From positions 1-57,525 of the forward strand of contig PETN01000025.1 of the NCBI GenBank assembly GCA_002781365.1: DNA of 57,525 nt, written 5' to 3'. The notes under the pieces were generated by a model. The model was not told where the DNA came from. It saw only the letters and a program-made list of their open reading frames with translations, and did no database searches. Of this stretch, positions 6,382 through 28,761 are shown piece by piece (the stretch's first letter is position 1; each line of letters starts with the position of its first letter). Both the position numbers and the translations under genes were made by a program. Source of the stretch: Sulfurimonas sp. CG01_land_8_20_14_3_00_36_23 (GTDB taxonomy: Bacteria > Campylobacterota > Campylobacteria > Campylobacterales > Sulfurimonadaceae).

Positions 6382-6409
6382 AATATATTCCTTAATTTTA
6401 TTTTATAAA

Positions 6410-6427
6410 ATGAAGGAAACCCTTCAT
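6410..6427. other. Small hairpin between nifS and nifU
   Basis: ATGAAGG (6410-6416) and CCTTCAT (6421-6427) form a perfect seven-base stem with loop AAAC in the nifS-nifU gap. On the minus transcript it lies shortly before nifU. It could be an attenuator, a processing site or an mRNA stabiliser; it lacks a clear U-tract. Confidence 0.4.
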
Positions 6428-6523
6428 CTATTTATCACGGTATCGGAACTGATTCCGCTACCTACGCTAACGCTTGGTTTCCTTCGGCAGGAAGCCCTCG
6501 CACCTTTGTGCTCTTTTAGTTTT

Positions 6524-7822
<1,299 letters not shown>

Positions 7823-8435: not shown

Positions 8436-10064
8436 TTAAATTTTTACCTCAACTCTATTTCTGCCATTTTCTTTAGCAGAGTAGAGTGCTTCATCAGCTC
8501 TTAAAAAAGCACTTTTTTTATCCTCATCCTCTTTGATTAAAGTAATCCCAAAACTGCAAGTCACTTTTGAGACAACATCCATTTTATGGGATGCTATGAC
8601 AACTCTCATCTTTTGAGTTATTTCTACTGCAGATTCAAGACTATCAACTTCTAGGGCAATCATAAACTCTTCTCCTCCCCATCTAGCGCAGATATCATTT
8701 TTTCTAAGGTTCTCTTTTAAAAGCGTTGCTATTTTTTTAAGAGTAGCATCTCCAACAAGATGCCCAAAGGTATCATTAACCTTTTTAAAAAAATCTATAT
8801 CCAACATCACTAAAGCTATTTTTTTCTCGTTTCTAAATGAGTGAACTATCATATAATCTAAATGTTCTTCAAATTTTTCTCGATTAAACAAACCTGTCAA
8901 AAAATCCTTTGTTGCTTTGTCATAAAGTTTTTTTTCTCTATCTTTAAGTGCTAAATTTTCTTCTATTTTCTCTTCTAGTTCTAGTACATGGGAGACAATA
9001 CGTTCATCTTTTTCTTTTATAGATTGACTCATCACATTAAAATAGGTAGCTATTGTTTGAAGTTCATCCCTTGAATTAATCTCAATAGTTTCCCCATATT
9101 TTCCAGCAGAAATCAACTTTAATCCCTTAATGATTTTAGAGAAATTTTTTCTAAGCATCAAAGATATAATTAAAACTGCTAAAAATAAAGACCCGATTAA
9201 AATCAGCAAAAATGAAACTTGCATAAATCTGACTTGAGAGAGTTGATGGTTATAGTTATCTTTGTTCTGCATCATCATCAAAGAGGCATTTGTCGTATCT
9301 TTATCGACAAGTGACAACTCCTTCGCTTTTGTGTAGTACTCTTTTGAGCCCATTTTCGTTGATAATAAATCCACATTTCCATTTAAGAGCCAAAGATACT
9401 CAGTATAAGCTAAGGGCAAGAGCGTAATGCTTTGATTGTTTTCATCTACTAAAGATGTAGCCACAAGAGCCCTATCTCCAACAATCGAAATATCAATATT
9501 TGTACCTTTTTTAACCTCACTTAAGAGTCTGTTACTAAGTTGAAGACCAATCAGTATCTCTCCAATAACTTGATCTTCTTCCATAATAACAACAGCAGTA
9601 TAATAGACAAATATATCAGCCACTCTTTCTATCATACTTACAGCACTCTTATTTTTCATAGCTTCATTAACTAAGCTATAACTCTTTAAATTTTCTGCAT
9701 CTATATGAAAAAGCCCATGCTCGGCTATGATATTTGCATCTTTATCAAGGATTATTAAACTATCAACATTCATATCTCTAACTTTAATTTCCAAGTACTC
9801 ATATATTGCTTGAATATTTTTATTCACTAAGTAATTTTTTATTTTTTTATTTTCAAGCAAAGTATTGGCCATATAGATATTGCTCTGCTGCATAAAGGAA
9901 AAATTATTCTCTACAATCTTTATGGTTTGCTCAAAACTGTCATTAGCAAGATTTTCAAATGTTTCATCAAGCTTTGCATGCTCTACACGAAATATAAATA
10001 TAACTTCAAGTATGACGGGCATCATAACTGCGATTATAAGTTTAAGCCCTATTGTAAATTTCAT
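8436..10064 (-). CDS. Membrane diguanylate cyclase with periplasmic sensor domain
   Basis: The 542 residues have an N-terminal membrane helix (about 7-25), a periplasmic Cache-like sensor of about 240 residues, a second helix (about 280-305), a HAMP-like linker and a C-terminal GGDEF domain. The active-site loop reads CARWGGEEF, a GGEEF variant that normally keeps cyclic-di-GMP synthesis. DxLT is seen as TKDFLTGLFNREKF. The gene overlaps the decahaem cytochrome gene by 4 bases (ATGA), so the two are translated together. A link between cytochrome redox state and cyclic-di-GMP signalling is suggested by the context but not shown. Confidence 0.88.
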   Translation of the reverse strand: MKFTIGLKLIIAVMMPVILEVIFIFRVEHAKLDETFENLANDSFEQTIKIVENNFSFMQQSNIYMANTLLENKKIKNYLVNKNIQAIYEYLEIKVRDMNVDSLIILDKDANIIAEHGLFHIDAENLKSYSLVNEAMKNKSAVSMIERVADIFVYYTAVVIMEEDQVIGEILIGLQLSNRLLSEVKKGTNIDISIVGDRALVATSLVDENNQSITLLPLAYTEYLWLLNGNVDLLSTKMGSKEYYTKAKELSLVDKDTTNASLMMMQNKDNYNHQLSQVRFMQVSFLLILIGSLFLAVLIISLMLRKNFSKIIKGLKLISAGKYGETIEINSRDELQTIATYFNVMSQSIKEKDERIVSHVLELEEKIEENLALKDREKKLYDKATKDFLTGLFNREKFEEHLDYMIVHSFRNEKKIALVMLDIDFFKKVNDTFGHLVGDATLKKIATLLKENLRKNDICARWGGEEFMIALEVDSLESAVEITQKMRVVIASHKMDVVSKVTCSFGITLIKEDEDKKSAFLRADEALYSAKENGRNRVEVKI

Positions 10065-11395
10065 TTGTTTTTTAAGACGTCCGAGAGAGTTCTCTTCTTA
10101 TCTTTTTTGTAAAAGTTGTTATATTCTTTGATTGCCCAATCTACAGACTTATCAGCATGGCAAGCTCCATTTTGACAAGAACTTGGCATACTATATTTTT
10201 CAGTAGCTTCTGGTGGGATTATTTTAAATGCATGCGAGCGTATAGTGTAAGTTCCTCCCGTCTTTCCAATCAGGGGCATGTGACACTCAACACAACTTGC
10301 CTTAGTATCTGGGCAAGGGGAATGCTTTTGAGTAAAACTATCTATATGACACTCTGTACATCTAGTATCAATACTCTGTTTGCTTCTTATAGTATTATCT
10401 ATTCCATGAGGCTCATGACAAGTTACACAGCTAATACCCAATTTCGCCTCTTCTATGCTAGGTTTATTTCCCTCTTTTGCCGAACGATAATCCTCAGAGT
10501 GGCAACGCAAGCAGTTATCATCTGTTTTGCCTCCATGTGGATTTTTCTTTGTTTTTAAATTTTGAAGTGCCTTACTATGTCCAGAGAATGAGAAATCTGC
10601 AAACTCTTGATGTCTATTTTTAGACAATCCGTTTCCCCACCAATTTTTCTTATCATTATTGAGTGAGCTTTTTACAAAACTTGCATTCAAATCTTCTCCA
10701 GGAATATACTCTAAGGGAAAATTGAAAAGTGTTGTTTTACCATTTATACTCATAGCACTTGTCCCTCGGCTATGGCATTGTCCGCAAACTGCTGACTTTT
10801 GCGAAACAATAATATCATCCTTATAAGTTGTATGCTCTTTATGGCAGACCTTACACTCTATATTGTTGATTTTCTTTTGATGAACAACGTGTTCACTTGC
10901 AGGTCCATGACACGCTTCACACTTCACCCCAAACTCATTAAAGCTATTGTCTTTTTGGGAATAACCTGTTGTGTGACAGCCATTACACTTAGTAGAAGCA
11001 GGGGTTTGCTTCCAATCGTGAACCTTATAAGGAACCCACTTTTGTGTAGTCACCATCCATTTTGCTGTAAAAGGGTAGTACTCCCCATCTATCATGTGCA
11101 TATAAACTTGTTCCCATTTGGAGCCAACTACATAAGTAATATCTTCTTTTTTAAAGTTTACAAGAGGATTATTTGAGCTAAAATCACCTAAAATTTCTTT
11201 CATGGAGGTTACTGGTCTGAAAATTTTTGGATGTAATGTTTTAGATAAAGAGCTATATTGTACCTGATGGCAAGACGCACACTCATCCATGCCTACATAC
11301 GTTGGCATATTATGAACGTCTTTATGGGTATTTAGAAGAAAATAAACCACTAAAATTAATATTATACATAAGATTGAAACGATGCTTTTTTTCAA
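10061..11395 (-). CDS. Ten-haem c-type cytochrome, membrane-anchored or periplasmic
   Basis: The 444 residues begin with a hydrophobic signal or anchor (about residues 4-21). Nine CXXCH haem sites follow: CASCH, CNGCH, CEACH, CKVCH, CGQCH, CLRCH, CVTCH, CTECH and CVECH. A tenth site near the C-terminus, CQNGACH, is CX4CH. The spacing and motifs such as CEACHGPASEH and CVTCHEPHG resemble the multihaem cytochrome c554/octahaem reductase group. It could be a reductase or an electron conduit; the substrate is not evident. It is the first gene of a two-gene operon with the diguanylate cyclase. Confidence 0.88.
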   Translation of the reverse strand: MKKSIVSILCIILILVVYFLLNTHKDVHNMPTYVGMDECASCHQVQYSSLSKTLHPKIFRPVTSMKEILGDFSSNNPLVNFKKEDITYVVGSKWEQVYMHMIDGEYYPFTAKWMVTTQKWVPYKVHDWKQTPASTKCNGCHTTGYSQKDNSFNEFGVKCEACHGPASEHVVHQKKINNIECKVCHKEHTTYKDDIIVSQKSAVCGQCHSRGTSAMSINGKTTLFNFPLEYIPGEDLNASFVKSSLNNDKKNWWGNGLSKNRHQEFADFSFSGHSKALQNLKTKKNPHGGKTDDNCLRCHSEDYRSAKEGNKPSIEEAKLGISCVTCHEPHGIDNTIRSKQSIDTRCTECHIDSFTQKHSPCPDTKASCVECHMPLIGKTGGTYTIRSHAFKIIPPEATEKYSMPSSCQNGACHADKSVDWAIKEYNNFYKKDKKRTLSDVLKNK

Positions 11396-12826: not shown

Positions 12827-14008
12827 ATGAAAACAAAGCTTCTTCCTCTCATTTTACTCAGCACAACACTCATGGCAATCCCCTCAGATTTTGAAGCTAC
12901 TCCCGTTATTGGTTATAGCTACAGTGAAGCAAATCTCGACATGAAAAGCTCTGCTCTTTATGGTGGGGAGATTCAATACAACAACAAAAATTCAATTTTA
13001 AGTCCTGAGATTTCAGTGCTTTATTCCGATAAGGTTCAGAGCCAAAATGTCATTCCTGAGATTTTAGACAACACGCTTTATCGCTTTGCTTTAAATGGTG
13101 TTTTTCAATATGAGAATGCCACCTTCATAACTCCTCTGAGTAAGATTGGTCTAGGATATGAAACCATAGAGCAAAAGTATTCACAGAATGTAGATAGTGT
13201 TTTTGTAACTATTGGCGTTGGGGCAAAGCTCGCACTCACAGAGAACATTGCTTTAAAAGTAGAAGCAATCCACATGGCAAAGTTTAACAGTAACCGCTGG
13301 GATAACAATACCGCTCTTTTAGGCGGTGTCACCCTTTCATTTGGTACTTCCATGAAAGATGAAGAGGCGCGAAGATTAGCTCAAATCGAAGCGGAAAATC
13401 AAGCGAAAATCGATGCACGCATTGCAGCAGAAGCACTCAAAGCAGAGCAAGATGCACAAGCAAGAGAAGCAGCATTAGCCGCGGCTATAGCAAAAAAAGA
13501 GGCACTTGAGAAAGCAAAAAGAGAAGCAGAAGAAAAAGCAGCCGCACTTCTAGCCGCAGAAGCTATCGCAAATGCAGATGATGATAAAGATGGCGTTAAA
13601 AATGGGCTTGATGCATGTCCAAACACTCCGCTTTATTTACCTGAAGTAAATGGTGTTGGCTGTTTAACGGAAGTAAATCTACAAATCAACTTTATCCCAT
13701 CCTCATTTGAGCTAACAGAAAAATCTAAAGAGAATATCCAAGCATTTGCACTTTACCTCCGCTCATCTCCACAATACAGCGTCAAGATACTAAGTCATAC
13801 GGACAGTATCGGTGAAGCACGTCCAAATCTAAGAGTAACCCAGAAAAGAGCGAATATTGTGAGAGATATGCTGATAAGCCAAGGTGTAGAGCCAAAAAGA
13901 GTTATTGCGAAAGGGATGGGTGAAGCACATCCTATCACTTCAAACATGCTCAAAGCTGGTCGTGCTCAAAACAGACGCATCCTAGCAGAGCTGACAAAAA
14001 TTCAATAA
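12827..14008 (+). CDS. OmpA-family outer-membrane protein
   Basis: The 393 residues show a signal peptide, an N-terminal beta-barrel of about 150 residues ending near [10 protein letters not shown], an alanine/glutamate-rich helical segment (about 180-245), one thrombospondin-3-like calcium motif ([18 protein letters not shown]) and a C-terminal OmpA peptidoglycan-binding domain (SHTDSIG, later [10 protein letters not shown] and NRRILAEL). It links the outer membrane to peptidoglycan. The long helix between barrel and anchor could span the periplasm. Its stop overlaps the mobA start (TAATG). Confidence 0.88.
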
Positions 14009-14586
14009 TGATTGAGACTCCTTGTGTCATCTTCGCTGGTGGTAGAAGTAGCCGAATGGGAAAGGACAAAGCACTTCTCCCCTTCGCAGGTTTTTCCACT
14101 CTAACACAATTTCAATACTCTCGTCTCAGTAAAATATTCAAAAATGTATATATTTCATGTAAAGACAAAAGCAAGTTTGCCTTTGAAGCCTCTTTTATTG
14201 AAGATATTCAAAGCGATACGCTCTTTGCACCCACTGCTGGATTTGTAGCTATTTTTGAGAGTTTAAAAGATGAAAGTTTTTTTGCACTAAGCGTGGACTC
14301 CCCTTTTGTGGGAAGAAAAGAGATAGAGAAGCTATTTAAGCATGACTTTCCACATGCCGATGCTACGATTGCAAAAACAGCTTTTGGGATAGAGCCGATG
14401 TGTGGAATTTATCACGCTTCACTCAAGGGCGAGTTTGAAAAAATGTTCAAAGAAGATAACCATAAACTCGGATTTTTACTCAAAAATGCAAAAACGACTT
14501 TTGTAGATTTTGAAGATGAAAAGCCCTTTTTAAACCTCAATCATCCGCATGAATATGAAGAGGCTTTGAAGCTTATTGAGCTTTAA
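14008..14586 (+). CDS. mobA: Molybdenum cofactor guanylyltransferase MobA
   Basis: Attaches GMP to molybdopterin to give the guanine dinucleotide form needed by DMSO-reductase-family enzymes. The 192 residues start with the nucleotide-binding motif [19 protein letters not shown], and SVDSPFVG is the metal-binding segment. The length is normal. Its start overlaps the ompA-like stop (TAATG). The product would be the cofactor for the molybdoenzyme encoded about 8 kb downstream. An exact TTCCACATGCC copy lies in the gene at 14348, read as F-P-H-A-D. Confidence 0.9.
14348..14358 (+). repeat. TTCCACATGCC motif copy inside mobA
   Basis: Exact copy, with an extra 5' T, read TTT-CCA-CAT-GCC (F-P-H-A). 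The same P-H-A reading recurs in metH, comM and dapF. Candidate DNA uptake sequence. Confidence 0.8.
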
Positions 14587-16009: not shown

Positions 16010-16480
16010 ATGAAACTAACGCACTTAGATGAAAAAGATAGACCTAAAATGGTAGATGTATCGGATAAAACGCAGACGACAAGAGTGGCTGTGGCAAGTG
16101 GAATCATCGAGATGAGCCAAGATGCCTATGATGCGATTATCAATGAAAAAACAAAAAAAGGTCCTGTACTTCAAACTGCTGTTATCGCGGCGATTATGGG
16201 AGCTAAACAGACGAGTAGCATTATCCCTATGTGCCATCCTTTAAACCTTAGCGGTATCAACTGTGAGGTCGAAGAACTTCCACAACTTCCTGGTTTTAAA
16301 CTCAGTGTTACTGCAAAACTTACAGGTCAAACTGGAGTAGAGATGGAAGCTTTAACAGGAACAAGTGTCGGGCTTTTAACTATCTATGACATGGTCAAAG
16401 CGATAGATAAAGGAATGGTTATCAGAAATGTTCAACTAGAAACAAAATCAGGAGGCAAAAGTGGAGATTATAAACGATAG
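16010..16480 (+). CDS. moaC: Cyclic pyranopterin monophosphate synthase MoaC
   Basis: Second step of molybdenum cofactor synthesis: converts the MoaA product to cyclic pyranopterin monophosphate. The 156 residues include [29 protein letters not shown] and the C-terminal [11 protein letters not shown] with the conserved lysines and aspartate. Length is normal. The following DUF493 gene overlaps its last 20 bases. With mobA and modABC it is part of the molybdenum theme of the first 26 kb. Confidence 0.93.
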
Positions 16481-17819: not shown

Positions 17820-18911
17820 CTACATATCTTTAGCTAATGTAAAAACATGGCTAAAGTCTACTCTATAGTCCGCACATCTATCACATATCGGGTCTCCACC
17901 TCGGTATGGGTAGGGGCATCTACACTCATGGCACATAACCATCTCATAATGCACTAACTCTTGCCCTCTATCGTAAGCAAACTCAACTAAATCAATTCCA
18001 TCGGTCGTTTTAATGGCATCTGTTTTACATATATGTTCACAAATCCCACAACCGATGCAGTTGCCGACATTAAAGTTGATTCCTTGTTTGTCGAGTGTAT
18101 TTAAGAGTGCCTCTGTTGGGCAAAATCTTATGCAGTCCCCACAGTTTGTACACGCTTCAAAAGAGATCTCTTTTTTTGAAAAGAGCTCAAAGTTTGTCGC
18201 ATGTTTTGTGACATTTATCTTTGGAAGATTCTCTTTGAGCGCGTTCTTTAATTGCATAAACTTTAGAGGAGTACCACTTTTGTTGGGGTTTTTTTGATAC
18301 TCTAAAGTCATTGAGAGTTGCTTAGCGTTCTCTTCTTGTGATGCCTCTTTTATGTTTTTAACGGCTGCTTTGAATATCATTCTTTTGGCATTCTCTTCTT
18401 GGGCTTTTTCCTCTAAAGTCAAGACAGAGCTCTCAGTTCCACATGCCAATAAAAACTCATTTGCTTTGTTGATTTCACCACGGATGAAACCCTCTATTTT
18501 TTGCTCTTTATTTAAAGTACACTCTTGACAATGTGTCATGTCGCACTGTGGCATCTCTTCGCTAGTTAGTGCCATGGTAATATAATGCTGCGCATCAAAA
18601 GAGCCTAAGCAAGAGGTGCTTTTTTTACAAGAGAGTAGTTTCTCTTCACGCTCTTTAAAGCTACTCACAAAAGCATTCGCATCAAAAGAGAGAAGTGTTA
18701 ATGCCTCTGTTGGACAAGAACCCATACATGCTCCACAACTTATACACTCATTTGAAAAGAGTGTAAGTTTGTTACGGACAATATGAAAAGCATCCTCAGG
18801 ACAGATGTCCAAACATTTTTGGCAAGCATTGTAATAGTAATCGTTTCTTATACAATTCGTACCACTATACGAGAAGAGTTCAGTTTTTTGAATGAATATA
18901 GAATCACTCAT
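17820..18911 (-). CDS. Multi-cluster ferredoxin of the molybdoenzyme operon
   Basis: A 363-residue cytoplasmic iron-sulfur protein. Full CX2CX2CX3C sites are seen in CISCGACMGSC, CTNCGDCIRFC and CIGCGICEHIC; a further set near the N-terminus is CQKCLDIC. A C-terminal CHECRC...CDRC segment looks like another metal site. No Tat or Sec signal is present, so it is not a partner of the periplasmic enzyme in situ. Similar ferredoxins occur beside molybdoenzyme genes in Campylobacterota, and a maturation role is possible. It overlaps the TorD gene by 8 bases. An exact TTCCACATGCC copy lies at 18437, read as L-A-C-G-T on the coding strand. Confidence 0.8.
   Translation of the reverse strand: MSDSIFIQKTELFSYSGTNCIRNDYYYNACQKCLDICPEDAFHIVRNKLTLFSNECISCGACMGSCPTEALTLLSFDANAFVSSFKEREEKLLSCKKSTSCLGSFDAQHYITMALTSEEMPQCDMTHCQECTLNKEQKIEGFIRGEINKANEFLLACGTESSVLTLEEKAQEENAKRMIFKAAVKNIKEASQEENAKQLSMTLEYQKNPNKSGTPLKFMQLKNALKENLPKINVTKHATNFELFSKKEISFEACTNCGDCIRFCPTEALLNTLDKQGINFNVGNCIGCGICEHICKTDAIKTTDGIDLVEFAYDRGQELVHYEMVMCHECRCPYPYRGGDPICDRCADYRVDFSHVFTLAKDM
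18437..18447 (+). repeat. TTCCACATGCC motif copy inside the ferredoxin gene
   Basis: Exact copy, extended to GTTCCACATGCCAA. On the coding strand it reads TTG-GCA-TGT-GGA-ACT (L-A-C-G-T), the same reading as one of the dapF copies. Candidate DNA uptake sequence. Confidence 0.8.
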
Positions 18912-19479
18912 CTCTACTCTTTTCTAATGTGGTGCAATACTCATAATCTGCGACTAAAAACTCTACTATAAAGTCACATATATCACTGTAAAATGGAGTG
19001 AGAGCCATACTTTTCATACCCATCATATAAGGAACAACCCAATTAAAAAGATGCTCTTTTAAGAAATCAGCCTGCGCTTGTGGTTCATTTCTAAAGATAA
19101 GTGTCTGCATAAAAGCAAACTCTATGGAGAGATGATCGGGAGCCATAAGTTCTGTTTGATCCATATTGAGTTCAAAGCCATGTTTGTAGTAGAAGTTCAT
19201 TACAGGGTTCTGAAGTCCAACGAGCGTCTCATTTTTAGCATCAAGGACAAAGGATTCGACTGCCTGCGTGTTTATAACAAACATAGAAGAGAAATCCTCA
19301 TTTAACTCATCAAGAATAACTTCATCACTCTTTTCATCAAAGTACGCAACTGTACTCTCTCCAAGCAATTCTAGAAAATCTCTGTTGTTTCTTAAATCAC
19401 TTACATATCTTTTATCAGCACTATCTGCCATCGTTCGAGAAAGAAATGCATAAATGTAGAGTCTGTACTCTTTATCCAT
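18904..19479 (-). CDS. TorD/DmsD-family molybdoenzyme chaperone
   Basis: A 191-residue helical cytoplasmic protein of the TorD type. It has the N-terminal YRLYIYAFLSRTM helix and the motif MAPDHLSIEFAFMQ, close to the family's E-P-D-H signature. Such chaperones bind the Tat signal of the catalytic subunit and protect it until the molybdenum cofactor is inserted. It lies in the same direction as the catalytic subunit and overlaps the ferredoxin gene by 8 bases. The obvious client is the 966-residue alpha subunit, whose signal carries RRNFLK. Confidence 0.85.
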   Translation of the reverse strand: MDKEYRLYIYAFLSRTMADSADKRYVSDLRNNRDFLELLGESTVAYFDEKSDEVILDELNEDFSSMFVINTQAVESFVLDAKNETLVGLQNPVMNFYYKHGFELNMDQTELMAPDHLSIEFAFMQTLIFRNEPQAQADFLKEHLFNWVVPYMMGMKSMALTPFYSDICDFIVEFLVADYEYCTTLEKSRDE

Positions 19480-19596
19480 CTGGTGTCCTTATTTGTTTAC
19501 ATCTATGTAGGGATTTTTATCATAATTTCGCTTGTAACCAAGCATAATAATCTAATTTACTTGAGAGAGAAGGGAAGGTATAAGAAAAATACCACC

Positions 19597-19615
19597 TAAA
19601 GCCATAAAGGCTTTA
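19597..19615 (-). terminator. Stem-loop after the small exported protein gene
   Basis: TAAAGCC and GGCTTTA form a perfect seven-base stem with a five-base loop, four bases after the stop of the 142-residue gene. On the minus transcript it is followed by a T-rich stretch. It may lower transcription into torD, so that the chaperone is made in smaller amounts than the enzyme. Confidence 0.5.
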
Positions 19616-19618
19616 AGC

Positions 19619-20047
19619 TTATAAGCAGCCCTTGAAAAAAGACTTTTTAGGGGGAGGTGGAGCTCTAAATTCAGTTGCCATGATAGTGTTTGTTTCTTTA
19701 TCATATTCACCGATAATCGTTACTTCATTACGGTTAATTCCTTCATCAATGTCGGAAGGATTTAATTTAGAAACATCAACAATATAAGTATGTCCCTCTT
19801 TATGTGAGTATAAAACTATAGTTACAGGAAGAGATGTTCCTGGCTCAACATTTTTAAAACAATCGTCACTTCCACATGCATAATTTTCAAGATAACAATC
19901 TTTAAACTCACCTGCAGCAGCACACTTCTCTGTACTTAAGAATCCCTCTTTTTCAACAGGTTCCAATACAACAGAACCAGCCAACGCTCCAGGAACGAGA
20001 GCAAATAGTAGTAGAAAAACAGAAGAGTATAAAGTAAATTTTTTCAT
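19619..20047 (-). CDS. Small exported protein of the molybdoenzyme operon
   Basis: A 142-residue protein with a Sec signal peptide (about 1-23, ending GALAG) and no family that I recognise. The mature part has five cysteines, four of them within about 35 residues (EKCAAAGEFKDCY then ACGSDDC) and one in the C-terminal GCL, plus a proline run APPPPKK near the end. The cysteine spacing does not form CXXCH, so no haem c is expected; disulfides or a metal site are possible. It overlaps the gamma subunit gene by one base. It may be an extra subunit or assembly factor. A near match to the repeated motif is at 19870. Confidence 0.6.
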   Translation of the reverse strand: MKKFTLYSSVFLLLFALVPGALAGSVVLEPVEKEGFLSTEKCAAAGEFKDCYLENYACGSDDCFKNVEPGTSLPVTIVLYSHKEGHTYIVDVSKLNPSDIDEGINRNEVTIIGEYDKETNTIMATEFRAPPPPKKSFFKGCL

Positions 20048-21246
20048 TATTCATTTCCTCCTTTTAAGGTTTTTAGATATGCAACCATATTTTCAAGTTC
20101 TTGTGGATCTAGCCAGCTATAATCAGGCATCGTAGAAACTCTTTTATTGTTTTCACGTAGTGTGTACCACTTATATTTGCTATGTGCATTTCTATTATAC
20201 CCTGGAACTACTACAGCAGATGGGTTCACTAAAGACTCTCTTAAGTAATCAGCCGTAGAGTAACCTCCAATACTTTTTAGAGCTGGAGCCATAAAATTTT
20301 CTCTATCATTAGCAGTTACCTGATGACACCCTTTACAACCATATGTAGTCATAGATTTTATTCCTGCAACTGGGTCACCAGTAGGTACTTCTGTAAGTGA
20401 TTTTACAAGTTCACTTTCCCCTTTTTTCAATCGAATTGCAAGCCATGGAGTGAGATATTTTAGACCATTACGCCCAAGTTTACCACCATTCCAAACAGCA
20501 AATGAAACAGGGATGGCTACGGCATCAAGATCTAGATAAGAGTCTTTGAGTGAACGAGAAACGGTTCCCAACCAACCGATACCGCTATATCCTATAGTAC
20601 TATGCGAATGACTCGTACCATCTTTGATTTGAGTCATCGAACGAAAGCCTTCACTAATAAAGCTTCTCTCATAGTCTGCTACACCTATATTAATAACTTG
20701 CTTCTCAAAAGCCTCCAAATCTTTGTTAAAAAGATTTGTTTGATTTGGGTTTATCTGATGTTCGATATCCCCATTTCCATTTGGCTCATAGATTCTTACG
20801 CTATCTTTTTGTAGATGAATAATAACTGGGCGGTCCACTGACCCCATCCCAATATATGGTAACTCTTTTGGAATAGAAAAGTTTCTAGCAAACTGAACAG
20901 CAAAAGCATCCGCATAAGCATCTGTACTGTCACTTTTTTGATAGTCTTGATGCACATCAGGCCATTTAATCATAAACGCAATTTTATCCTTATTGTAAAT
21001 TGCAGCTATTGCAGCAATAATAGGAGTATTGTTTTGATTGAGTTCATTCGCTTTTGCATCATTAAATCTAATTGTAGTTTGCGGGTACAAAGTAACTGGC
21101 GTAAACTTTGTATTTGTCCAAATTCTAGACTTATGACTTATAACATCTAAATTTTCATTCACTTTTTCAGCAATGATTTCAACTTCAGCAAGTGCAGAAG
21201 TTGCCATAATAGCGAGTGCTACTACAGCAGTTGCAAATTTTTTCAT
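20047..21246 (-). CDS. Molybdoenzyme gamma subunit: haem b domain fused to cytochrome c
   Basis: The 399 residues start with a Sec signal peptide (cleavage near ALA at 20). Residues about 25-280 form an ethylbenzene-dehydrogenase-type (EB_dh) domain, which in EbdC/DdhC/SerC binds haem b through Met and Lys; Met134 in YIGMGS is a candidate ligand. Residues about 295-399 are a monohaem cytochrome c with CKGCH (304-308) and a likely Met ligand in STMPDY. Most characterised type II enzymes have the haem b domain alone. This fusion would pass electrons between the periplasmic enzyme and a soluble carrier. The gene shares one base with both neighbours. Confidence 0.85.
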   Translation of the reverse strand: MKKFATAVVALAIMATSALAEVEIIAEKVNENLDVISHKSRIWTNTKFTPVTLYPQTTIRFNDAKANELNQNNTPIIAAIAAIYNKDKIAFMIKWPDVHQDYQKSDSTDAYADAFAVQFARNFSIPKELPYIGMGSVDRPVIIHLQKDSVRIYEPNGNGDIEHQINPNQTNLFNKDLEAFEKQVINIGVADYERSFISEGFRSMTQIKDGTSHSHSTIGYSGIGWLGTVSRSLKDSYLDLDAVAIPVSFAVWNGGKLGRNGLKYLTPWLAIRLKKGESELVKSLTEVPTGDPVAGIKSMTTYGCKGCHQVTANDRENFMAPALKSIGGYSTADYLRESLVNPSAVVVPGYNRNAHSKYKWYTLRENNKRVSTMPDYSWLDPQELENMVAYLKTLKGGNE

Positions 21247-22373
21247 TAGTGCTTTCCTCCCACATTTAAATCTCCACCATGAAAGAAATTCATTTGATGT
21301 CCAGATTTTGTATATTTACCTGCTATATATCTATTGTCAACAGGGGCCAGTGGATGTTGTCCTTTGTCCTTAGCTACTTGTTTGTAGTAGTTATTGTCAA
21401 GACGGAACATATCTGAATGCTGGTATGCGATAAGTATATCCATAAGTTCACTTTCACCTGTCTCTTTACGCTTCTTCATTTCAGCTTTTAATGTTTCTAT
21501 AGCTCCATGAACTTCTTGACCAAATAGTTTTTCTAACTCTTCGATTGGTAGACGACCTGAACCTTCTATAATTTTTCCATTTGCATCAAATTTCACTGGA
21601 GACTCGGTCGGTGGAACATAATAAACGTTTGGTACAGTGCCATAGTCAGTTCTTAGACCAATAGCTACTTTATACTTTTTAACTAGTTTATATACTTGAC
21701 CCTCTTCATCATCTAAGAATCCAACAAAACGAATACGCCCAACACACTGCTGTGCACATGCTGGTGGAAGACCTTGCTCAATTCTTGGAAAACATAAAAT
21801 ACACTTCTCAGACTTTGAAATCTTAGGATTGAAGTAGATTTTTTTGTAAGGACAGCCTGCTATACAATAGCGGTACCCTTGACATCTGTCTAAGTCAACT
21901 AAAACAACACCATCTTGCTCTCGCTTAAATATTGCATCACGAGGACATGCACTTAAACAGCCTGGATTTGTACAGTGGTTACAAATACGAGGTAAATAGA
22001 AGAAGTAGTTGTCTTGTGGAAAAAGACCAGCACCCTCATCTTCATCCCAGTTTGGTCCCCATGTAGGCTCTACATTTGGTTCAAAAGATGCACCACTCGC
22101 AATAGCATCATAATTATAATCCCAAGGCACACCATAATCTGCTTCAAGGTTTGGAATGATACCTGGCTTCAAATCACCACCTTTATCAAAACCACCGCCT
22201 AACTCCATCCAATTTTTTGGATAACCTGTCCCTGGATACGTTTCAACGTTATTCCAATACATATACTCACGGCCATTTCTGTTTGTCCATTGAGTTTTAC
22301 ATGCTACAGTACATGTTTGGCACCCGATACATTTGTTCAGGTCCATTACCATTGCTAATTGTCTTTTTGACAT
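21246..22373 (-). CDS. Molybdoenzyme beta subunit, four Fe-S clusters
   Basis: Electron-transfer subunit of a type II DMSO-reductase-family enzyme (NarH/EbdB/DdhB/SerB/PcrB group). The 375 residues carry CIGCQTCTVAC at 15-25, CNHCTNPGCLSAC, CQGYRYCIAGC and CILCF, then PPACAQQC. The tyrosine in CQGYRYC replaces a cysteine, which in this group gives a [3Fe-4S] cluster. It has no own export signal and is expected to travel with alpha through Tat. Its C-terminal part (YGTVPNVYYVPP) is typical of periplasmic type II enzymes. It is 9 bases after alpha and overlaps gamma by one base. Confidence 0.92.
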   Translation of the reverse strand: MSKRQLAMVMDLNKCIGCQTCTVACKTQWTNRNGREYMYWNNVETYPGTGYPKNWMELGGGFDKGGDLKPGIIPNLEADYGVPWDYNYDAIASGASFEPNVEPTWGPNWDEDEGAGLFPQDNYFFYLPRICNHCTNPGCLSACPRDAIFKREQDGVVLVDLDRCQGYRYCIAGCPYKKIYFNPKISKSEKCILCFPRIEQGLPPACAQQCVGRIRFVGFLDDEEGQVYKLVKKYKVAIGLRTDYGTVPNVYYVPPTESPVKFDANGKIIEGSGRLPIEELEKLFGQEVHGAIETLKAEMKKRKETGESELMDILIAYQHSDMFRLDNNYYKQVAKDKGQHPLAPVDNRYIAGKYTKSGHQMNFFHGGDLNVGGKH

Positions 22374-22382
22374 CTATGCTCC

Positions 22383-25283
22383 TTAAACTTTTGCTTTTTC
22401 GTAGTTAACGGCGCCATCATAAGCGTACTGATTGCCATCCCAAAGACCACCGAATTTTAAATGACCCCAGCCATCTGCCATCTCTAATAAATTAAGAGAA
22501 GTAGGTACAAGCTCATTATGACCTTTATTAAATTTATACATGTACGGTTCCCATCCATGTTCCATAACAAGACCATCTGCAGGAGAAGAAGAACTTAGTT
22601 TTGCCATTGCGAAGAACTCACCAAGAGTATTAAAGACACGGATAGTATCTCCATCTTTAATCCCTTTAGCCTCTGCTACTACACGGTTTAGTGCAATTGC
22701 TGGCACACCACGTTGTAAACGAAGAAGTGTACGTGAAGTTTTATAGTTAGAGTGAATCGACCATCTAGCATGTGGAGTCATAAGTACATATGGGAACTTT
22801 TTACGCTGTGGACGGATTCCTTCCATCCCTGTATTTGTATTCGCACCCATTTTTATATACATTTCATGGTCAACATAAAATGTTTGACGACCAGTTACAG
22901 TATCAAGTCTCTCAAATTTATAGATATGATTCTCCATAGAAGAGTATGGCTTATCAGAGTAGAGAGGTGAAGATTTCGCTGCTTTTTCATTAATCAACAA
23001 GAAGCCACCCATCTTATACATTTTCTCTATTGTCCAAGGGCTGTATTGCTCACATTTTTCAAGTGCAGCTTCAAGAGCCATCTTATCAGTACCAAGATAA
23101 ACCTCTCCATTTCCTTCAGACTCTTCATCTGTGTTTGTGTACTCTTTGTGAAAGATAGTCAAGTCATGAAAACCTGGTTTTGCATAACGAACGTCATCTT
23201 TTACTTTTGCCTTAGATTTGTTTTTAGGACGATTAGCTATCTCTTCTAATTTTTTAGCAAGAAGTGTAAACATACTCCACTCATCCATAGACTCACCAAT
23301 ATTTTTAATATTAGCAACAGGTTGTGCTAAATTTGTAAAACGGTGGTAGCCTGGAGATGTGCGTAAATCATAAACCTCATAGTGAGATTTTGCAGGGAGA
23401 AGAACATCTGCATATTGTGCAGCTTCACTCATTCTATAATCTACATACGCATAAAAGTCCATTCTTTCTAAGAACGCTTTACGATATTCACTTCCCTTAT
23501 TTCTTCTAAAAGTTGAATCGGCAACAATTAATGCAGTTGTTGGTAACCACCATGGTTTAACCACATTCCCTGTGTGACTTGTCAGATTTGCTCCACCATT
23601 CTTTCCAGCATCAAGCATCTCTTTAAGTACAGTCATATACTCATTTTTACTCATACCATTTTGTGCACGTCTTACATCTTCATCTTCAAAATATTTATCA
23701 AATGTTTTCATGCCATTACCGTTCATGAACTCGCCAACAAATCCTGAACCAAACCTAGGAGCGTATTTCCCAGAAAACCCAGAGAGCGCACCAAGACCAG
23801 CTAATGAAAACTCATTTTCAGTATTGAGTCCGCCATAAGGTCCCATTCTTCCCGTTAAACCACAGATTGAAGAGATATTCCAAATTGTCATCATTCCGTT
23901 AAAATATTTATTTAACGAGAAACCTGTAGTAATTTCTACAACTTTTGGAAGTGCGATATCTTTTGCTAATTGAACAACAGTATCAGGATGAACACCAGTA
24001 ATATCTTTTGTTGCTTCAGGAGCAAATTTTGCAGCTGACTTTTTAAGCATTTCAAAAACAGTTGTTACCTCACGCTCTTCACCATGAACATCTGTAATTG
24101 TAAAAGTACCCTCAAGTGCAGGAACCACATTCTCAGGAAGACGAAGAGACTTATTATCATGTGTCTCAGTTCCTGGCATCAAAAATGGCTTTCCATCTGT
24201 TGTATTCATACAATAAAATTGTTCACCCCATTTGTGGTGTTCTTCTTTATCGTTTGTATGTTCCATATCATTACGACGAATCATTTTCTGAGTTCTTGTA
24301 TCTACTAACATAGGAAGGTCAGTATAAAGTTTCATAAACTCAGGTTTATAAAGTTTTTGCTCAAGGATTACATTTATAACACTCATTGCTAAGATATTAT
24401 CAGAACCTGCTTTGATTGGAATCCATAAGTCAGCTGATTTTGCTGTAGCATTAAACTCTGGAGTAATAACAATGATTTTAGCACCATTGTATTTACCTTC
24501 CCAAACAAAGTGAGCATCAGGAATACGTGAAACAGATGGATTTCCACCCCACATAACTGCTGTATCAACAGTGTACATAAAGTCCCAAGTACAACCAACA
24601 TTCCCTTCACCATAAGCTATAGCAGCACCAGAGAACATATCTCCAAGATAAGAAGAGGGATAGATGCGGTTTGCACCAAGTTGTGTAGAAAAACGTAATA
24701 CGGAACCACGACGACCTTCTGTTAAAAGACCAGTTCCAGCGTGAACCATCAACTTATCTGGACCACGTTTTGGATCTGTTAAAGTATCAAAAATGTTTTG
24801 ACAGATTTTTTCAGCTGCTTGGTCCCAACTTACACGTTTCCACTTCCCTTCACCACGCTCACCTGTACGAACCATTGGATAAAGGATTCTATCTTTTTGA
24901 TACATGACTTGTGAATGCTGAACACCTTTGTTACAACCACGAGGGTTAAAGTCAGGAATTTTAGCATTGATAACTGGGTAGCGTGCAGATTGGTTTTCTC
25001 GTGTAATAACACCATTGTGAGACCAAACTTCCCATGCACAATTCCCTTGACAGTTTACACAGTGATATGCGAAACCATGTTCCTCTTTTTTACCATAAGT
25101 AAATGAAAACTCATTTCTATACATCTCTTCCGTATAGTTTGTATTTGGATAGTCATTATTTCCGTTTTCAATACTCATCGTATTTGTTTTAGCAAAAAGA
25201 CTACCTTGCGAAGCAACCAGTGCAGCGGTCATTCCCGATACTTTAAGGAAATTTCTACGCTTATTATTCATAACTTTAGTCAT
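22383..25283 (-). CDS. Type II DMSO-reductase-family molybdoenzyme catalytic subunit
   Basis: The 966 residues begin with a Tat signal (NKRRNFLKVSG, then a hydrophobic run to about 31). The first Fe-S cluster has His74, Cys78, Cys82 and Cys117, the same His/Cys spacing as NarG, which defines type II enzymes. The predicted Mo ligand is Asp215 in SYLGDMFSGA, the place of the aspartate in NarG/EbdA. The cofactor is bis-MGD, supplied by the MobA pathway. Members reduce nitrate, chlorate or selenate, or oxidise dimethyl sulfide, ethylbenzene or nitrite, so the substrate cannot be named. A Tat signal, a periplasmic haem subunit and no NarI-like gene argue against a Nar-type nitrate reductase. The start follows an AGGAAAGGG ribosome site. 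Confidence 0.92.
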   Translation of the reverse strand: MTKVMNNKRRNFLKVSGMTAALVASQGSLFAKTNTMSIENGNNDYPNTNYTEEMYRNEFSFTYGKKEEHGFAYHCVNCQGNCAWEVWSHNGVITRENQSARYPVINAKIPDFNPRGCNKGVQHSQVMYQKDRILYPMVRTGERGEGKWKRVSWDQAAEKICQNIFDTLTDPKRGPDKLMVHAGTGLLTEGRRGSVLRFSTQLGANRIYPSSYLGDMFSGAAIAYGEGNVGCTWDFMYTVDTAVMWGGNPSVSRIPDAHFVWEGKYNGAKIIVITPEFNATAKSADLWIPIKAGSDNILAMSVINVILEQKLYKPEFMKLYTDLPMLVDTRTQKMIRRNDMEHTNDKEEHHKWGEQFYCMNTTDGKPFLMPGTETHDNKSLRLPENVVPALEGTFTITDVHGEEREVTTVFEMLKKSAAKFAPEATKDITGVHPDTVVQLAKDIALPKVVEITTGFSLNKYFNGMMTIWNISSICGLTGRMGPYGGLNTENEFSLAGLGALSGFSGKYAPRFGSGFVGEFMNGNGMKTFDKYFEDEDVRRAQNGMSKNEYMTVLKEMLDAGKNGGANLTSHTGNVVKPWWLPTTALIVADSTFRRNKGSEYRKAFLERMDFYAYVDYRMSEAAQYADVLLPAKSHYEVYDLRTSPGYHRFTNLAQPVANIKNIGESMDEWSMFTLLAKKLEEIANRPKNKSKAKVKDDVRYAKPGFHDLTIFHKEYTNTDEESEGNGEVYLGTDKMALEAALEKCEQYSPWTIEKMYKMGGFLLINEKAAKSSPLYSDKPYSSMENHIYKFERLDTVTGRQTFYVDHEMYIKMGANTNTGMEGIRPQRKKFPYVLMTPHARWSIHSNYKTSRTLLRLQRGVPAIALNRVVAEAKGIKDGDTIRVFNTLGEFFAMAKLSSSSPADGLVMEHGWEPYMYKFNKGHNELVPTSLNLLEMADGWGHLKFGGLWDGNQYAYDGAVNYEKAKV

Positions 25284-25299
25284 ATTTTAAACCCTTTCC

Positions 25300-26442
25300 T
25301 TATTTCTTAATTGGTAAATTCATATCATTACCCCAAACATCCCAGCTACCTGTAAATACTTTAATATTTTCGTAACCTAAGAGTTTAAGAGCGGTAATAT
25401 GCTCAGAGCCACGACCTGCACCAACCATACAATATGCATAGATAGTTTTATCTTTTGTAATGCCGTATTTAGCATAAACCTCTTTGAGTGCTGTTGCTGA
25501 TTTGAATGATTTCTTATTTTCCATGTCAGAAATTTTATTCCACTCCATAAATGTGGAACCAGGAACATGCCCACCACGAGCTACATTATCCATTTTTCTC
25601 TCACCAATTATTTCAGCCATACCTCTTGCGTCAATTATAACGAACTTGGAATCTTTCCCATTTTTAAGGATATCTTCCATCGCATGCTTAACCTCTTCTT
25701 TTGCCGCTATAAAAGATAAGTCTATATTTTTCTGATCTATTTTATACTTTTTAGGTGTTACATGTTCTTCACCTTTAACAACTATAAGATCTTTCTCCGC
25801 TGCTTTCAACTTAGCTTCTAAAGCTTTTTGAGCCTTTTCACTTACACTTATGATTTTGTCAAGCTCCGCTTTTTTCTTAGCACTTAACTTTGTCTTTTCT
25901 TGAGCCGCATTCTTAAGTTCTTTTTTCGCTGCTTTGGAGTTACTCTTTTCAGCTTTAAGTTCATCTTTTATGGCATCATATTTTGCCTGAGCTGGATCGA
26001 CTTGCATCATTGCATTACGTCCACCATTAAGTATTTTCAGATTTTTATGTCCGTAACTTTGAAAAAAGGAGTAAACACCTGTAGCATTTGGTCCTTTAAA
26101 ATCATCATATGCGATTACAAGAGTATCGTTATCAATCCCTTTTGAACCAATATATTGTTCTGCATCATCTATACAGCGATAAAGTGGTGCACAATGCATT
26201 TCTCCTGTTATATCTGAGTGATGCAAATGGTGTGCATACATTTCAACTGAACCTTTTATATGTCCTAGCTTATATACATCATCACTATCTCCTGAAACAA
26301 ACATTACATTCTTTTTCCCCACTAATCCCATAGCATCTTCTGCAGAGATAAGAATATCATTGTTTACATACTCTCCTGCTGCCATTAGAGGTGTCAATGT
26401 CAATGTTGCTACAACAGCGAATGTCTTTAGCAAGTTTTTCAT
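25300..26442 (-). CDS. Exported tandem rhodanese with helical insert
   Basis: The 380 residues have a Sec signal peptide (about 1-22) and two rhodanese domains. The first (about 25-150) has AYDDFKG at the place of the active-site loop, so it lacks the catalytic cysteine. The second (about 240-380) has Cys338 in CMVGAGRGS and should be active. Between them lies a lysine/alanine/glutamate-rich helix (about 151-222), probably a coiled coil or spacer. Rhodaneses move sulfane sulfur between thiosulfate, polysulfide or protein thiols. It is the first gene of the molybdoenzyme operon, 16 bases before alpha, which points to a sulfur-related substrate or to sulfur delivery. Cys84 and Cys90 form a possible extra pair. 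Confidence 0.85.
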   Translation of the reverse strand: MKNLLKTFAVVATLTLTPLMAAGEYVNNDILISAEDAMGLVGKKNVMFVSGDSDDVYKLGHIKGSVEMYAHHLHHSDITGEMHCAPLYRCIDDAEQYIGSKGIDNDTLVIAYDDFKGPNATGVYSFFQSYGHKNLKILNGGRNAMMQVDPAQAKYDAIKDELKAEKSNSKAAKKELKNAAQEKTKLSAKKKAELDKIISVSEKAQKALEAKLKAAEKDLIVVKGEEHVTPKKYKIDQKNIDLSFIAAKEEVKHAMEDILKNGKDSKFVIIDARGMAEIIGERKMDNVARGGHVPGSTFMEWNKISDMENKKSFKSATALKEVYAKYGITKDKTIYAYCMVGAGRGSEHITALKLLGYENIKVFTGSWDVWGNDMNLPIKK

Positions 26443-26748: not shown

Positions 26749-27357
26749 ATGTTAGATATGAATATACAAAATGCAATAGATTCTAAGAATGAAGCGTTTA
26801 TAATTGAAGCACTAGAAGATAAAGCTCTAAATATCGAATTGGTAAAAAAAATATACTTCTCATTTAGAGAACATAAAGAGATGGTTGGGCAGGTTGCAAT
26901 GAACCTCAGCTTACGAACATCTGTCTATGATAGAGAGAAAGAGTATAGTGAAACAATGGTTGAGCTCTTGAGAGATTTGGCGGTCAATAATGTAGATATG
27001 GGAGCTAGATGGGCAGTTGCAAAAAACCCTCACACTCCAGAAGATGTCCTTAGTAACTTAGCCATGGATACGATTAATCTTGTTCGGGCATTGGTTGCTA
27101 CGAACCCATCTACCCCACCCTCTATTTTAGAAAAGTTTTTTAGTGATGAGAAGATTGTAAGAGATGGACTCTCAGGAAACCCTTCTACCCCAATCAAAAT
27201 TTTAAAAATTCTCGCTAATGATGCAGACAAGATGGTACGTATGCGTTTAGCTGAGAACCCTGCTGCAACGAAAGAAATTTTAGAGGAGTTAGCAGATGAT
27301 TCTGATTTAAATGTTTCCAAAGCGGCACAAACAAATATACAAAGGTTTACTGCATGA
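26749..27357 (+). CDS. Leucine-rich-repeat-variant (LRV) protein
   Basis: A 202-residue helical repeat protein. At least four LRV-type units are visible in the second half: AKNPHTPEDVLSNLAMD, ATNPSTPPSILEKFFSD, SGNPSTPIKILKILAND and AENPAATKEILEELADD. The N-P-x-T/A-x-x-x-(I/V)-L pattern is the hallmark. LRV proteins are mostly protein-binding and one type carries an Fe-S cluster, but no cysteine is found here, so no cluster is expected. The gene starts a plus-strand operon, divergent from the molybdoenzyme operon, and overlaps the next gene by 4 bases. A chaperone or adaptor role is inference. Confidence 0.75.
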   Translation: MLDMNIQNAIDSKNEAFIIEALEDKALNIELVKKIYFSFREHKEMVGQVAMNLSLRTSVYDREKEYSETMVELLRDLAVNNVDMGARWAVAKNPHTPEDVLSNLAMDTINLVRALVATNPSTPPSILEKFFSDEKIVRDGLSGNPSTPIKILKILANDADKMVRMRLAENPAATKEILEELADDSDLNVSKAAQTNIQRFTA

Positions 27358-27725
27358 GAAAACATTCAACAAGCATGAAGAGTAAATTTACATCTATAGA
27401 AAACCAATTTTTAAACACATTTTTCTCAGGACTCTACATAAGTGCAAATGAGTTTATAAGCGTTGGAGCTAAAGTTGGGCTAAAACTCACTATGAACTCA
27501 AGAGAACTGCTTATAAAAGAGCTTCTCAATAAAAGTGATGAAAATGGAACTTTAAGTCAGACTACGGCACTCTTAAACACTCTCATTCAAGAGAGAGTTG
27601 CAAGATACCATGCGCTGAGTCTCGATTATCCAAGTTCAGCGGGAGCACTCTCTCGACTTGCACAAAAAGCATCGAGTACAAAATCTCTCTTAAGTAGAGA
27701 GTCTCAAGGAAATCCCTATGAATAG
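27354..27725 (+). CDS. Uncharacterised protein between LRV and mrp
   Basis: A 123-residue protein that I do not recognise. It has no signal peptide; sequence such as LNTFFSGLYISANEFISVGAKVGLKL suggests an amphipathic helical region. It overlaps LRV by 4 bases and mrp by 8 bases, so all three genes are translated together. Small proteins with similar architecture could be adaptors; no function is assigned. Confidence 0.6.
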   Translation: MRKHSTSMKSKFTSIENQFLNTFFSGLYISANEFISVGAKVGLKLTMNSRELLIKELLNKSDENGTLSQTTALLNTLIQERVARYHALSLDYPSSAGALSRLAQKASSTKSLLSRESQGNPYE

Positions 27726-28761
27726 CAGTGAATTAAAAAAAGCTTTGCAGGGGCTCAACTATCCTGGTATTGATAGAACCATAGGGGAGCTTAAACTCTT
27801 AGGGGAGATAAAAGTAACAGAAGATAGAGCTAACATCGAGCTTTTAACCATTAGCGATGAATCCTACTTGAATGTAAAAAGAATCATAGAAGAGAACTTT
27901 TCCGACACATTTGGGAGCTTAAATATAACTAAGAAAAATTTAGGCACCAAAAAAGATATGAACTATGGAAATAGTGCGGATCCAAATAACCGTGCACCTT
28001 ATGCGAAAAACATTATTGCAGTGACAAGTGGAAAAGGTGGCGTTGGGAAAAGTACAGTCAGCGTAAATATTGCCATAGCTTTAGCACAGAGAGGCTACAA
28101 GGTAGGACTTTTGGATGCGGATGTCTATGGTCCAAATGTTCCAAGATTAACAAATACAGACCTCCAAAGAATACAATGGGATGATAATGACAAAATCATT
28201 CCAGCAGAGAACTATGGTATCAAAATAATGAGTGTTGCACTCACAACACCTGCGATGGATACGCCCCTTGTATGGAGAAGTTCCGTTGCCGTCAATGCAC
28301 TTATCCAGTTTTTAGAGGATGTTGCTTGGGGAGAACTAGATTTTATGGTGATTGATATGCCTCCAGGAACTGGAGATGTTCAGCTCACAGTAGCACAAGA
28401 GCTTCCTATCTCGGCGGCAGTACTTGTTACAACACCACAAATAGTTGCAACAGATGATGTAAGTCGTGCTGTTATGATGTTTAAAGATATTGGCGTGAAA
28501 ATGGCAGGGATTGTTGAAAACATGAGTTTTTTTATAGCACCAGATACAAAAAATCGCTATGACATTTTTGGAACTGGAGGGGGAGAGAAAATCGCTAAAA
28601 AGTATGAGATTCCCTTTTTAGGTGCGATACCACTCGATATGCAAGTAAGAGAGTCCTCTGACAGAGGGGAGCCTCCTGTGGTACTAGGAGATGCACATAT
28701 TAAAAAATATTATCAAGACATCATTGATAATATCTTCAAGAACTCTGACTTTACCTTATAG
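27718..28761 (+). CDS. mrp: Mrp/ApbC-family P-loop ATPase
   Basis: A 347-residue MinD/Mrp-type ATPase involved in Fe-S cluster delivery in other bacteria. The N-terminal MIP18/DUF59-like domain (about 1-80) precedes the deviant Walker A GKGGVGKSTVSVNIA, and DADVYGPNVPR and DMPPGTGDVQLT follow. The usual CXXC Fe-S site of Mrp after GIVENMSFFI reads APDT here, so the two cysteines are missing. It ends a three-gene operon, and a strong inverted repeat follows, shared with the convergent aroC. Confidence 0.88.
   Translation: MNSSELKKALQGLNYPGIDRTIGELKLLGEIKVTEDRANIELLTISDESYLNVKRIIEENFSDTFGSLNITKKNLGTKKDMNYGNSADPNNRAPYAKNIIAVTSGKGGVGKSTVSVNIAIALAQRGYKVGLLDADVYGPNVPRLTNTDLQRIQWDDNDKIIPAENYGIKIMSVALTTPAMDTPLVWRSSVAVNALIQFLEDVAWGELDFMVIDMPPGTGDVQLTVAQELPISAAVLVTTPQIVATDDVSRAVMMFKDIGVKMAGIVENMSFFIAPDTKNRYDIFGTGGGEKIAKKYEIPFLGAIPLDMQVRESSDRGEPPVVLGDAHIKKYYQDIIDNIFKNSDFTL

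Follow-up and report, generated by a model that had tools for sequence, protein, structure and literature searches.

The 57,525-nucleotide stretch of DNA from Sulfurimonas sp. CG01_land_8_20_14_3_00_36_23 analysed here (contig PETN01000025.1, hereafter the window) carries on its minus strand, at positions 26442-17820, a seven-gene operon that encodes an exported rhodanese, the alpha, beta and gamma subunits of a type II molybdoenzyme of the dimethyl sulfoxide (DMSO) reductase family, a small Cys-tailed protein, a TorD-type chaperone and a polyferredoxin. Judging from its gene content and phylogenetic distribution, we consider that, on balance, this operon probably specifies a module for periplasmic sulfane-sulfur dehydrogenation that is complete in itself and takes over the function of SoxCD, as well as that of SoxYZ in genomes where SoxYZ is absent. 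The broader proposal is made more tentatively, as a possibility that we would stop short of calling probable: a second, non-homologous sulfane-oxidising system, with a DMSO-reductase-family dehydrogenase, a new type of OB-fold carrier with a penultimate Cys on its arm and a rhodanese of its own, which would replace SoxCD-SoxYZ in many Campylobacterota. The seven-gene set is widespread yet uncharacterised in sulfur-dwelling members of this phylum, and we found no description of it among the open-access papers listed by our searches, which did not cover preprints.

All seven open reading frames lie where the original prediction, made from the letters of the window, had put them, and the gene order and family assignments proposed there agree with the Pfam and NCBIfam matches. 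In the order of transcription, the genes are:

25300-26442, minus strand: exported two-domain rhodanese, 380 amino acids (PF00581 in two stretches; Sec-like signal peptide by eye)
22383-25283, minus strand: alpha, the Tat-exported type II Mo-bisMGD catalytic subunit, 966 amino acids (TIGR03479, 736.7 bits)
21246-22373, minus strand: beta, the Fe-S electron-transfer subunit, 375 amino acids (TIGR03478, 507.1 bits)
20047-21246, minus strand: gamma, an EB_dh haem-b-type domain fused to a cytochrome c domain, 399 amino acids (PF09459 and PF00034)
19619-20047, minus strand: small exported protein, probable OB-fold with a Pro-rich C-terminal arm ending in FFKGCL, 142 amino acids
18904-19479, minus strand: TorD/NarJ-type chaperone, 191 amino acids (PF02613; TorD and type II chaperone models matched below their cut-offs)
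17820-18911, minus strand: polyferredoxin, 363 amino acids (Pfam/NCBIfam match and Cys conservation)

The genes are tightly spaced (16, 9, -1, -1, 139 and -8 bases) apart from the 139 bases before torD. Every one of the 59 fetched loci whose flank is long enough keeps the core order rhodanese-alpha-beta-gamma-small protein, and 45 of 51 have the full set of seven, so the association of these genes is not due to chance. The TorD-ferredoxin pair is absent beside the core in 4 of the 51 loci, and the ferredoxin alone was undetected in 2 more.

A scan of one genome per species, covering 84,980 species, returned 146 relatives, the best 80 of which are the named loci of this study; these overlap with the genomes of the order Campylobacterales described below (same contigs, e.g. 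L030 and L017), and the two sets of counts are not independent. Of the best 80 relatives, 77 carry Campylobacterota titles, whereas L034 and L038 are titled 'bacterium' and L101 'Proteobacteria bacterium'. They include Sulfurimonas, Sulfuricurvum, Sulfurovum, Sulfurospirillum, Hydrogenimonas, Nitratiruptor, Thiovulum, Aliarcobacter and others, and among them the closest to the window by alpha are metagenome-assembled genomes of Sulfurimonas. Sulfuricurvum titles stand on 12 of these 80 loci, all with an operon-type alpha, some contigs being too short for the rest. One genome, G059, has two operon copies on separate contigs (L023 and L029), with alphas 70-71% identical to that of the window; one of the copies has no torD-ferredoxin pair beside it.

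Oxidation of reduced sulfur is favoured because the operon and SoxC show complementary distributions, soxB is linked to the operon in one family and the small protein has a carrier-like tail. These three observations support a sulfur compound as the likely substrate, as originally predicted. Two candidates had been left side by side there, oxidation of a reduced sulfur compound and reduction of an oxyanion; the former is now favoured and the latter disfavoured by the absence of a chlorite dismutase match in the 103 fetched sequences searched and of any association with NapA (see below).

Scored by its small protein, which misses copies cut by contig ends (e.g. in G057), the operon is present in 83 of 298 genomes of the order, including the host genome of the window, G000 (2.43 Mb in 102 contigs). 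All search totals (298, 283, 100 and 60 genomes) include G000, and in the contingency tables it is part of the total but not of the operon count, which leaves the 'neither' cell one too large. Counted in this way, 82 genomes carry the operon and 92 carry SoxC (TIGR04555): 78 have only the operon, 88 only SoxC, four have both (G088, G228, G255 and G327) and 128 have neither (p = 7e-11). Among the 97 genomes with soxB, the corresponding numbers are 23, 67, four and three (Fisher p = 3e-15, genomes treated as independent), and among the 127 genomes with SoxY, they are 32, 87, four and four (p = 3e-21). The thresholds were E 1e-8 for SoxY, 1e-60 for SoxB and 1e-80 for SoxC, with 99 of 127, 96 of 97 and 91 of 92 matches, respectively, over the curated cut-offs. 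The operon showed no association with soxB (p = 1.0) or soxY (p = 0.79) in the 298 genomes, nor with NapA, used as a control (61 of 81 operon genomes vs 158 of 202 others, p = 0.64, in a table of 283 genomes, taken as those up to G314, whose cells may be off by about one). When labels were shuffled within families, the 119 of 127 SoxY genomes with exactly one of the two systems compared with a mean of 106 (p <= 5e-5); shuffling within genera gave p = 0.037. Among NapA-bearing genomes, five of the seven genera that hold both systems have zero overlap between them (p = 0.0013); these mixed genera were selected by eye, and an eighth, g49, was dropped since its operon genome lacks NapA.

In the genus of the window, which comprises 37 genomes including G000, 27 are at least 90% complete, and among these 27 SoxC is absent only from G000, G016 and G030, the sole three that have the operon. 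One of the ten less complete members, G035 (68% complete), has neither. In G000 itself we found no match to SoxB or SoxC at 1e-30, to SoxY at 1e-8 or to NapA at 1e-150; of the periplasmic systems for sulfane oxidation that were sought there, the operon would thus be the only one found.

In seven genomes (G053, G072, G099, G138, G150, G172 and G255), all from family f18, soxB lies within 20 kb of the operon on the same contig. These represent 7 of the 27 genomes with both the operon and soxB, and 7 of the 11 such genomes in f18; soxB and mostly soxY were identified there by family searches, and the other sox genes by eye from gene order. Among the 80 named loci, soxB fell within the fetched flank only in L087, L093 and L098, which overlap with G255, G172 and G150, and a weak SoxY match was seen in the flanks of L058 and L087. 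The genome G255 (L125, contig C24, 1076-16442) holds both systems, with SoxC and soxB genes directly adjoining the operon.

The small protein has a mean column identity of 51% across 12 sequences, yet its C-terminus F-F-K-G-C-L, including the penultimate Cys141, is invariant in 66 of 66, as are Cys42 and Cys51; Cys58 and Cys63 are found in 64. A Pro-rich stretch precedes the tail, with P130-P132 kept in all 66. It has no Pfam or NCBIfam family and the SoxY family was not matched. AlphaFold2, run on 12 sequences, gave a model with a mean pLDDT of 75 and strands between residues 29 and 128: block means are 81-96 for the barrel, 52-74 for the Cys-bearing insertion (residues 41-70) and 53-67 for the tail, whose residues 131-142 are of low confidence. 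A Foldseek search with this model gave nothing under E 0.001 (best E 0.038). The neighbours listed by VIA-align are OB-folds (PriB with Z 8.5, single-stranded DNA-binding proteins, YgiW with 7.1 and SilF with 6.5), although only the best score reaches 8.5 and the rest are under 8, near the stated background of the tool; no carrier fold is among them, which does not argue against one. The modelled fold is thus a probable OB-fold. SoxY and DsrC each present a Cys on a C-terminal arm, and the small protein resembles them in its flexible C-terminal arm with a near-terminal Cys, but differs in having no match to any sequence family and only OB-folds as structural neighbours. The analogy suggests that it is a sulfur carrier, with a folded base and a flexible arm that bears the penultimate Cys. 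The original prediction listed a small Cys protein but mentioned neither its Cys-ended tail nor that the operon avoids SoxCD, the pair of features that we regard as the most informative.

By eye, alpha has a Tat-like motif RRxFLK and beta has none, whereas gamma, the rhodanese and the small protein start with Sec-like signal peptides. The PF00581 domains and the active-loop Cys place the rhodanese in the sulfurtransferase family; its catalytic-type Cys338 in YCxVGxGR is invariant in 71 of 71 sequences, its N-terminal domain has a His-rich motif, AHHLHH, and its profile matches solved thiosulfate sulfurtransferases. Beta scores over the cut-off of TIGR03478 (480.7 bits) and keeps 15 Cys residues in 72 of 72 sequences. 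Gamma matches PF09459 over the cut-off, has a single CxxCH in each of 66 sequences and keeps M134, K147, K263, C304, C307, H308 and M373 invariant in 67 of 67; M134, K147 and K263 are candidate haem b ligands. In the polyferredoxin, 24 Cys residues are conserved in at least 90% of 54 sequences. The original prediction of a type II molybdoenzyme that is located in the periplasm and has a c-type cytochrome as its electron-transfer partner is supported. A role for the rhodanese as a maturation factor (Mo sulfuration, FdhD-like) was considered and thought unlikely because it looks exported, whereas Tat substrates fold in the cytoplasm.

With a rhodanese, a carrier-like tail and an exit through a c-type haem, a sulfane dehydrogenase is the simplest reading of this gene set. 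In the putative chemistry that we infer for it, direction and substrate included, the exported rhodanese would take sulfane sulfur (from polysulfide, thiosulfate or the product of SQR) onto Cys338 and would hand it to the small protein, where the penultimate Cys of the flexible arm would receive it. The arm would then offer the persulfide to the Mo site of alpha, where it might be oxidised with water oxygen towards a sulfonate/sulfite. Electrons would pass along the Fe-S clusters in alpha and beta, then the haem b (Met/Lys) and the haem c (His/Met) in gamma, and on to a soluble cytochrome c, which would pass them to a terminal oxidase or reductase. Hydrolytic release of sulfite/sulfate could be carried out by SoxB where present and otherwise by another enzyme, and TorD and the polyferredoxin may serve in assembly or redox supply. 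In the cited parts of PMC10045233 and PMC12403661, soxCDY2Z2 alone, without soxAB, is reported or proposed as a module for oxidation of elemental sulfur (S0) in Campylobacterota, and according to a section of PMC7952632 it occurs in all 11 Sulfurimonas strains compared there. Since soxCDY2Z2 is reported or proposed to work by itself, a stand-alone substitute is plausible, and the operon looks like its counterpart: both would pair a periplasmic molybdoenzyme with a c-type haem in a stand-alone module, and their distributions are complementary. It differs in that alpha belongs to the DMSO reductase family and not to SoxC (TIGR04555), and in that the small protein does not match SoxY.

A number of observations weigh against the replacement of SoxCD by the operon. 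Sequence searches showed the small protein to be homologous to no known carrier, and none of the seven genes encodes a SoxB-like hydrolase by Pfam. In 20 of the 27 operon genomes with soxB, the two are far apart or on different contigs; soxB is missing from 55 of the 82 operon genomes, 46 of which have no soxY either, so that the link to Sox is not universal. In the genus of the window, G008 (62% complete) has both systems, its alpha lying on a 3.7 kb contig and being only 70% identical to that of the window. Genera g20 and g18 go the other way, holding the both-system genomes G088, G228 and G255. A genus-wise permutation in the seven mixed genera, made on NapA-bearing genomes to avoid selection on the tested genes, found 3 overlaps vs 5.25 expected (p = 0.07), and the exclusion statistics take account of kinship through family and genus shuffling only, with coarse genome labels and no species tree. 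SoxC is positively associated with NapA (71 of 82 vs 148 of 201, p = 0.019). Finally, the operon is found in Sulfurospirillum arcachonense, a sulfur reducer. The exclusion could reflect lifestyle rather than equivalence. This is the strongest rival explanation: the operon and SoxCD would mark different lifestyles, such as oxygen regimes, and their mutual exclusion would be ecological or phylogenetic. It draws on the within-genus test (p = 0.07), on the 46 operon genomes devoid of soxB and soxY and on the partition of NapA with SoxC and not with the operon, and it overlaps with the other rivals. We consider it somewhat unlikely: the fact that only 4 of 127 SoxY genomes lack both systems calls for a functional explanation, and ecology would also have to account for the zero overlap within five genera that hold both.

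The placement of alpha bears on a second alternative, a respiratory oxyanion reductase (for chlorate, selenate, nitrate or similar) that would receive electrons from cytochrome c through gamma, with the rhodanese handling reactive products. Alpha has the Molybdopterin and Molydop_binding domains of Pfam, and the residues highlighted in the original prediction, the FS0 His/Cys3 ligands H74, C78, C82 and C117 and the Mo ligand D215, show no variation among all 78 complete sequences. Its TIGR03479 score is under the curated cut-off of 984.75 bits, which marks it as a divergent relative and not a member by that model; ClrA, a Haloferax enzyme and the PcrA-like relative in G004 score 1347.5, 1418.2 and 1206.3 bits, respectively. 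In a survey of 100 genomes of the order, 34 (G000 included) had TIGR03479 matches at E 1e-100 and none was over the cut-off; all 36 matches listed for the order fall below it. Alpha is also under the EbdA and NarG equivalog cut-offs of NCBIfam, and the 25 families listed for it do not include TIGR04555, the SoxC family. In a tree of 19 rows, the 12 operon alphas form a single clade (100/100) whose stem is 1.68 changes per column long. This clade adjoins two near-identical ClrA rows (96/94) without grouping inside them, a join that, as the tree program warns, may be due to long-branch attraction; identity to ClrA is 34%. EbdA is on the same side of the tree and PcrA, NarG and the haloarchaeal enzyme are on the opposite side, with EbdA and NarG represented by one long-branched row each and with SerA, DdhA, CmdA, C25dh and NxrA left out. 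Rather than with the operon alphas, PcrA groups with the G004 relative (100/100). Among the characterised rows placed in this tree, alpha is, by sequence, its own type II clade, and the phylogenetic check suggested with the original prediction sets it apart from the chlorate and perchlorate reductase rows. The genome G004, from the same genus as the window, has that PcrA-like alpha instead (L028, contig C44, 2048-6642), with a beta subunit and a TorD-type chaperone, and it also has SoxC.

The type II heterotrimers of the DMSO reductase family, which also include SerABC and DdhABC, are the closest known systems. The operon shares with ClrABC, PcrAB and EbdABC the His/Cys3 and Asp motifs of alpha, the beta family, an EB_dh gamma and a TorD-type chaperone, but differs in the sub-threshold score and separate clade of alpha, in the fusion of gamma to a cytochrome c, in having the rhodanese first and in the addition of the Cys-tailed small protein and the polyferredoxin. 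Perchlorate reductase alpha is the best solved relative of alpha and ClrA is its nearest neighbour in the tree, subject to the warning above. The N-terminal domain of the rhodanese weakly matches ExtH of the selenite/tellurite operon; it resembles ExtH and other exported rhodaneses in its tandem domains, but its 39.7 bits are far under the ExtH cut-off of 200 and the operon is different. An oxyanion reductase is nonetheless unlikely, given that the operon alphas are separate from both ClrA and PcrA and that the operon has no relation to NapA; it would also leave the Cys-tailed exported protein and the avoidance of SoxC unexplained. Chlorate reduction was rejected because a tblastn search for chlorite dismutase at 1e-3 found none in the 103 fetched sequences, a few of which lack the operon; the remaining parts of the genomes lay outside this search. 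As for nitrate reduction, NapA shows no trade-off with the operon. In the portion of PMC4674564 cited here, a Sulfurovum-like genome from Zeitz is described as having annotated narGH with a putative narI downstream, but no narK and no Sox genes. Contig L070 of this genome carries the operon, and we suspect that the narGH annotated there are operon genes, possibly misannotated.

A third possibility, which we regard as quite improbable, is a reductive sulfur enzyme that acts on polysulfide, tetrathionate or thiosulfate, or that forms the reductive branch of a disproportionation pathway, and that receives its sulfur from the rhodanese in the way suggested for Wolinella. A section of PMC7952632 does cite a rhodanese of Wolinella as a polysulfide-sulfur transferase, and the operon occurs in Sulfurospirillum. 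However, the invariant Met/Lys candidates for haem b and the Met candidate for haem c suggest a high potential, ill-suited to low-potential sulfur couples: the Met/Lys-ligated haem b of ethylbenzene dehydrogenase (EbDH) lies at +256 mV and probably donates its electrons to cytochrome c (PMC8840923, in the part cited). By this likeness, sulfane oxidation suits gamma better than sulfur reduction. Besides, Pfam gave no match to a membrane quinone subunit for any of the seven proteins. The MOLY cluster of sulfur disproportionators was set aside on its published occurrence, its full form being reported only in Desulfobacterota in the cited part of PMC12998232. Oxidation of an organosulfur compound (as by dimethyl sulfide (DMS) dehydrogenase) or a hydrocarbon (as by EbDH), with the rhodanese serving in detoxification, would fit a gamma and beta of the EbDH/DMS dehydrogenase kind and the position of EbdA on the operon and ClrA side of the tree, but is likewise quite improbable, as the avoidance of SoxC and the soxB linkage in one family point to inorganic sulfur and the operon alphas stand on a long stem of their own.

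Outside the operon proper, a divergent trio on the plus strand (26749-28761), consisting of an LRV-repeat protein, a 123-amino-acid protein and an Mrp/ApbC Fe-S NTPase, is a conserved neighbour; of the 49 loci whose flank is long enough, 43 have Mrp divergently upstream of the operon, and the trio is possibly involved in Fe-S supply. MobA-like and MoaC-like genes lie beside the operon at 14008-14586 and 16010-16480, and the segments 161-5293 and 5407-7783 hold genes for a molybdate-uptake-like ABC transporter and a TOBE-domain helix-turn-helix regulator, followed by NifU and a NifS-like gene (all of these names being assigned partly by eye). The window also encodes, on the minus strand at 10061-11395, a multihaem cytochrome with nine CxxCH motifs and c554/c7-like domains, which adjoins a GGDEF protein at 8436-10064.

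The sulfane dehydrogenase proposed here would affect how sulfur-oxidising Campylobacterota are interpreted from their genomes. In the cited parts of PMC12403661 and PMC4288042, absence of soxCD is taken as a sign of elemental sulfur formation or incomplete oxidation, and the latter describes Sulfuricurvum kujiense and Ca. Sulfuricurvum RIFRC-1 as having no soxCD; a complete sox set is reported for some mine-water Sulfuricurvum genomes in passages of PMC10086054 and PMC11294248. Sulfonitrofixus HSL3-7, a soxCD-less isolate, is described, in the excerpt used here, as growing on H2 and sulfate although genes known for this are lacking. If the proposal is true, a carrier with such a Cys-bearing tail would be new, as far as we know, as would a type II enzyme that oxidises sulfane sulfur, and 'lacking soxCD' would not mean 'stops at S0'. 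If the operon does replace SoxCD, predictions of S0 versus sulfate as the end product in caves, aquifers and sediments would need revision.

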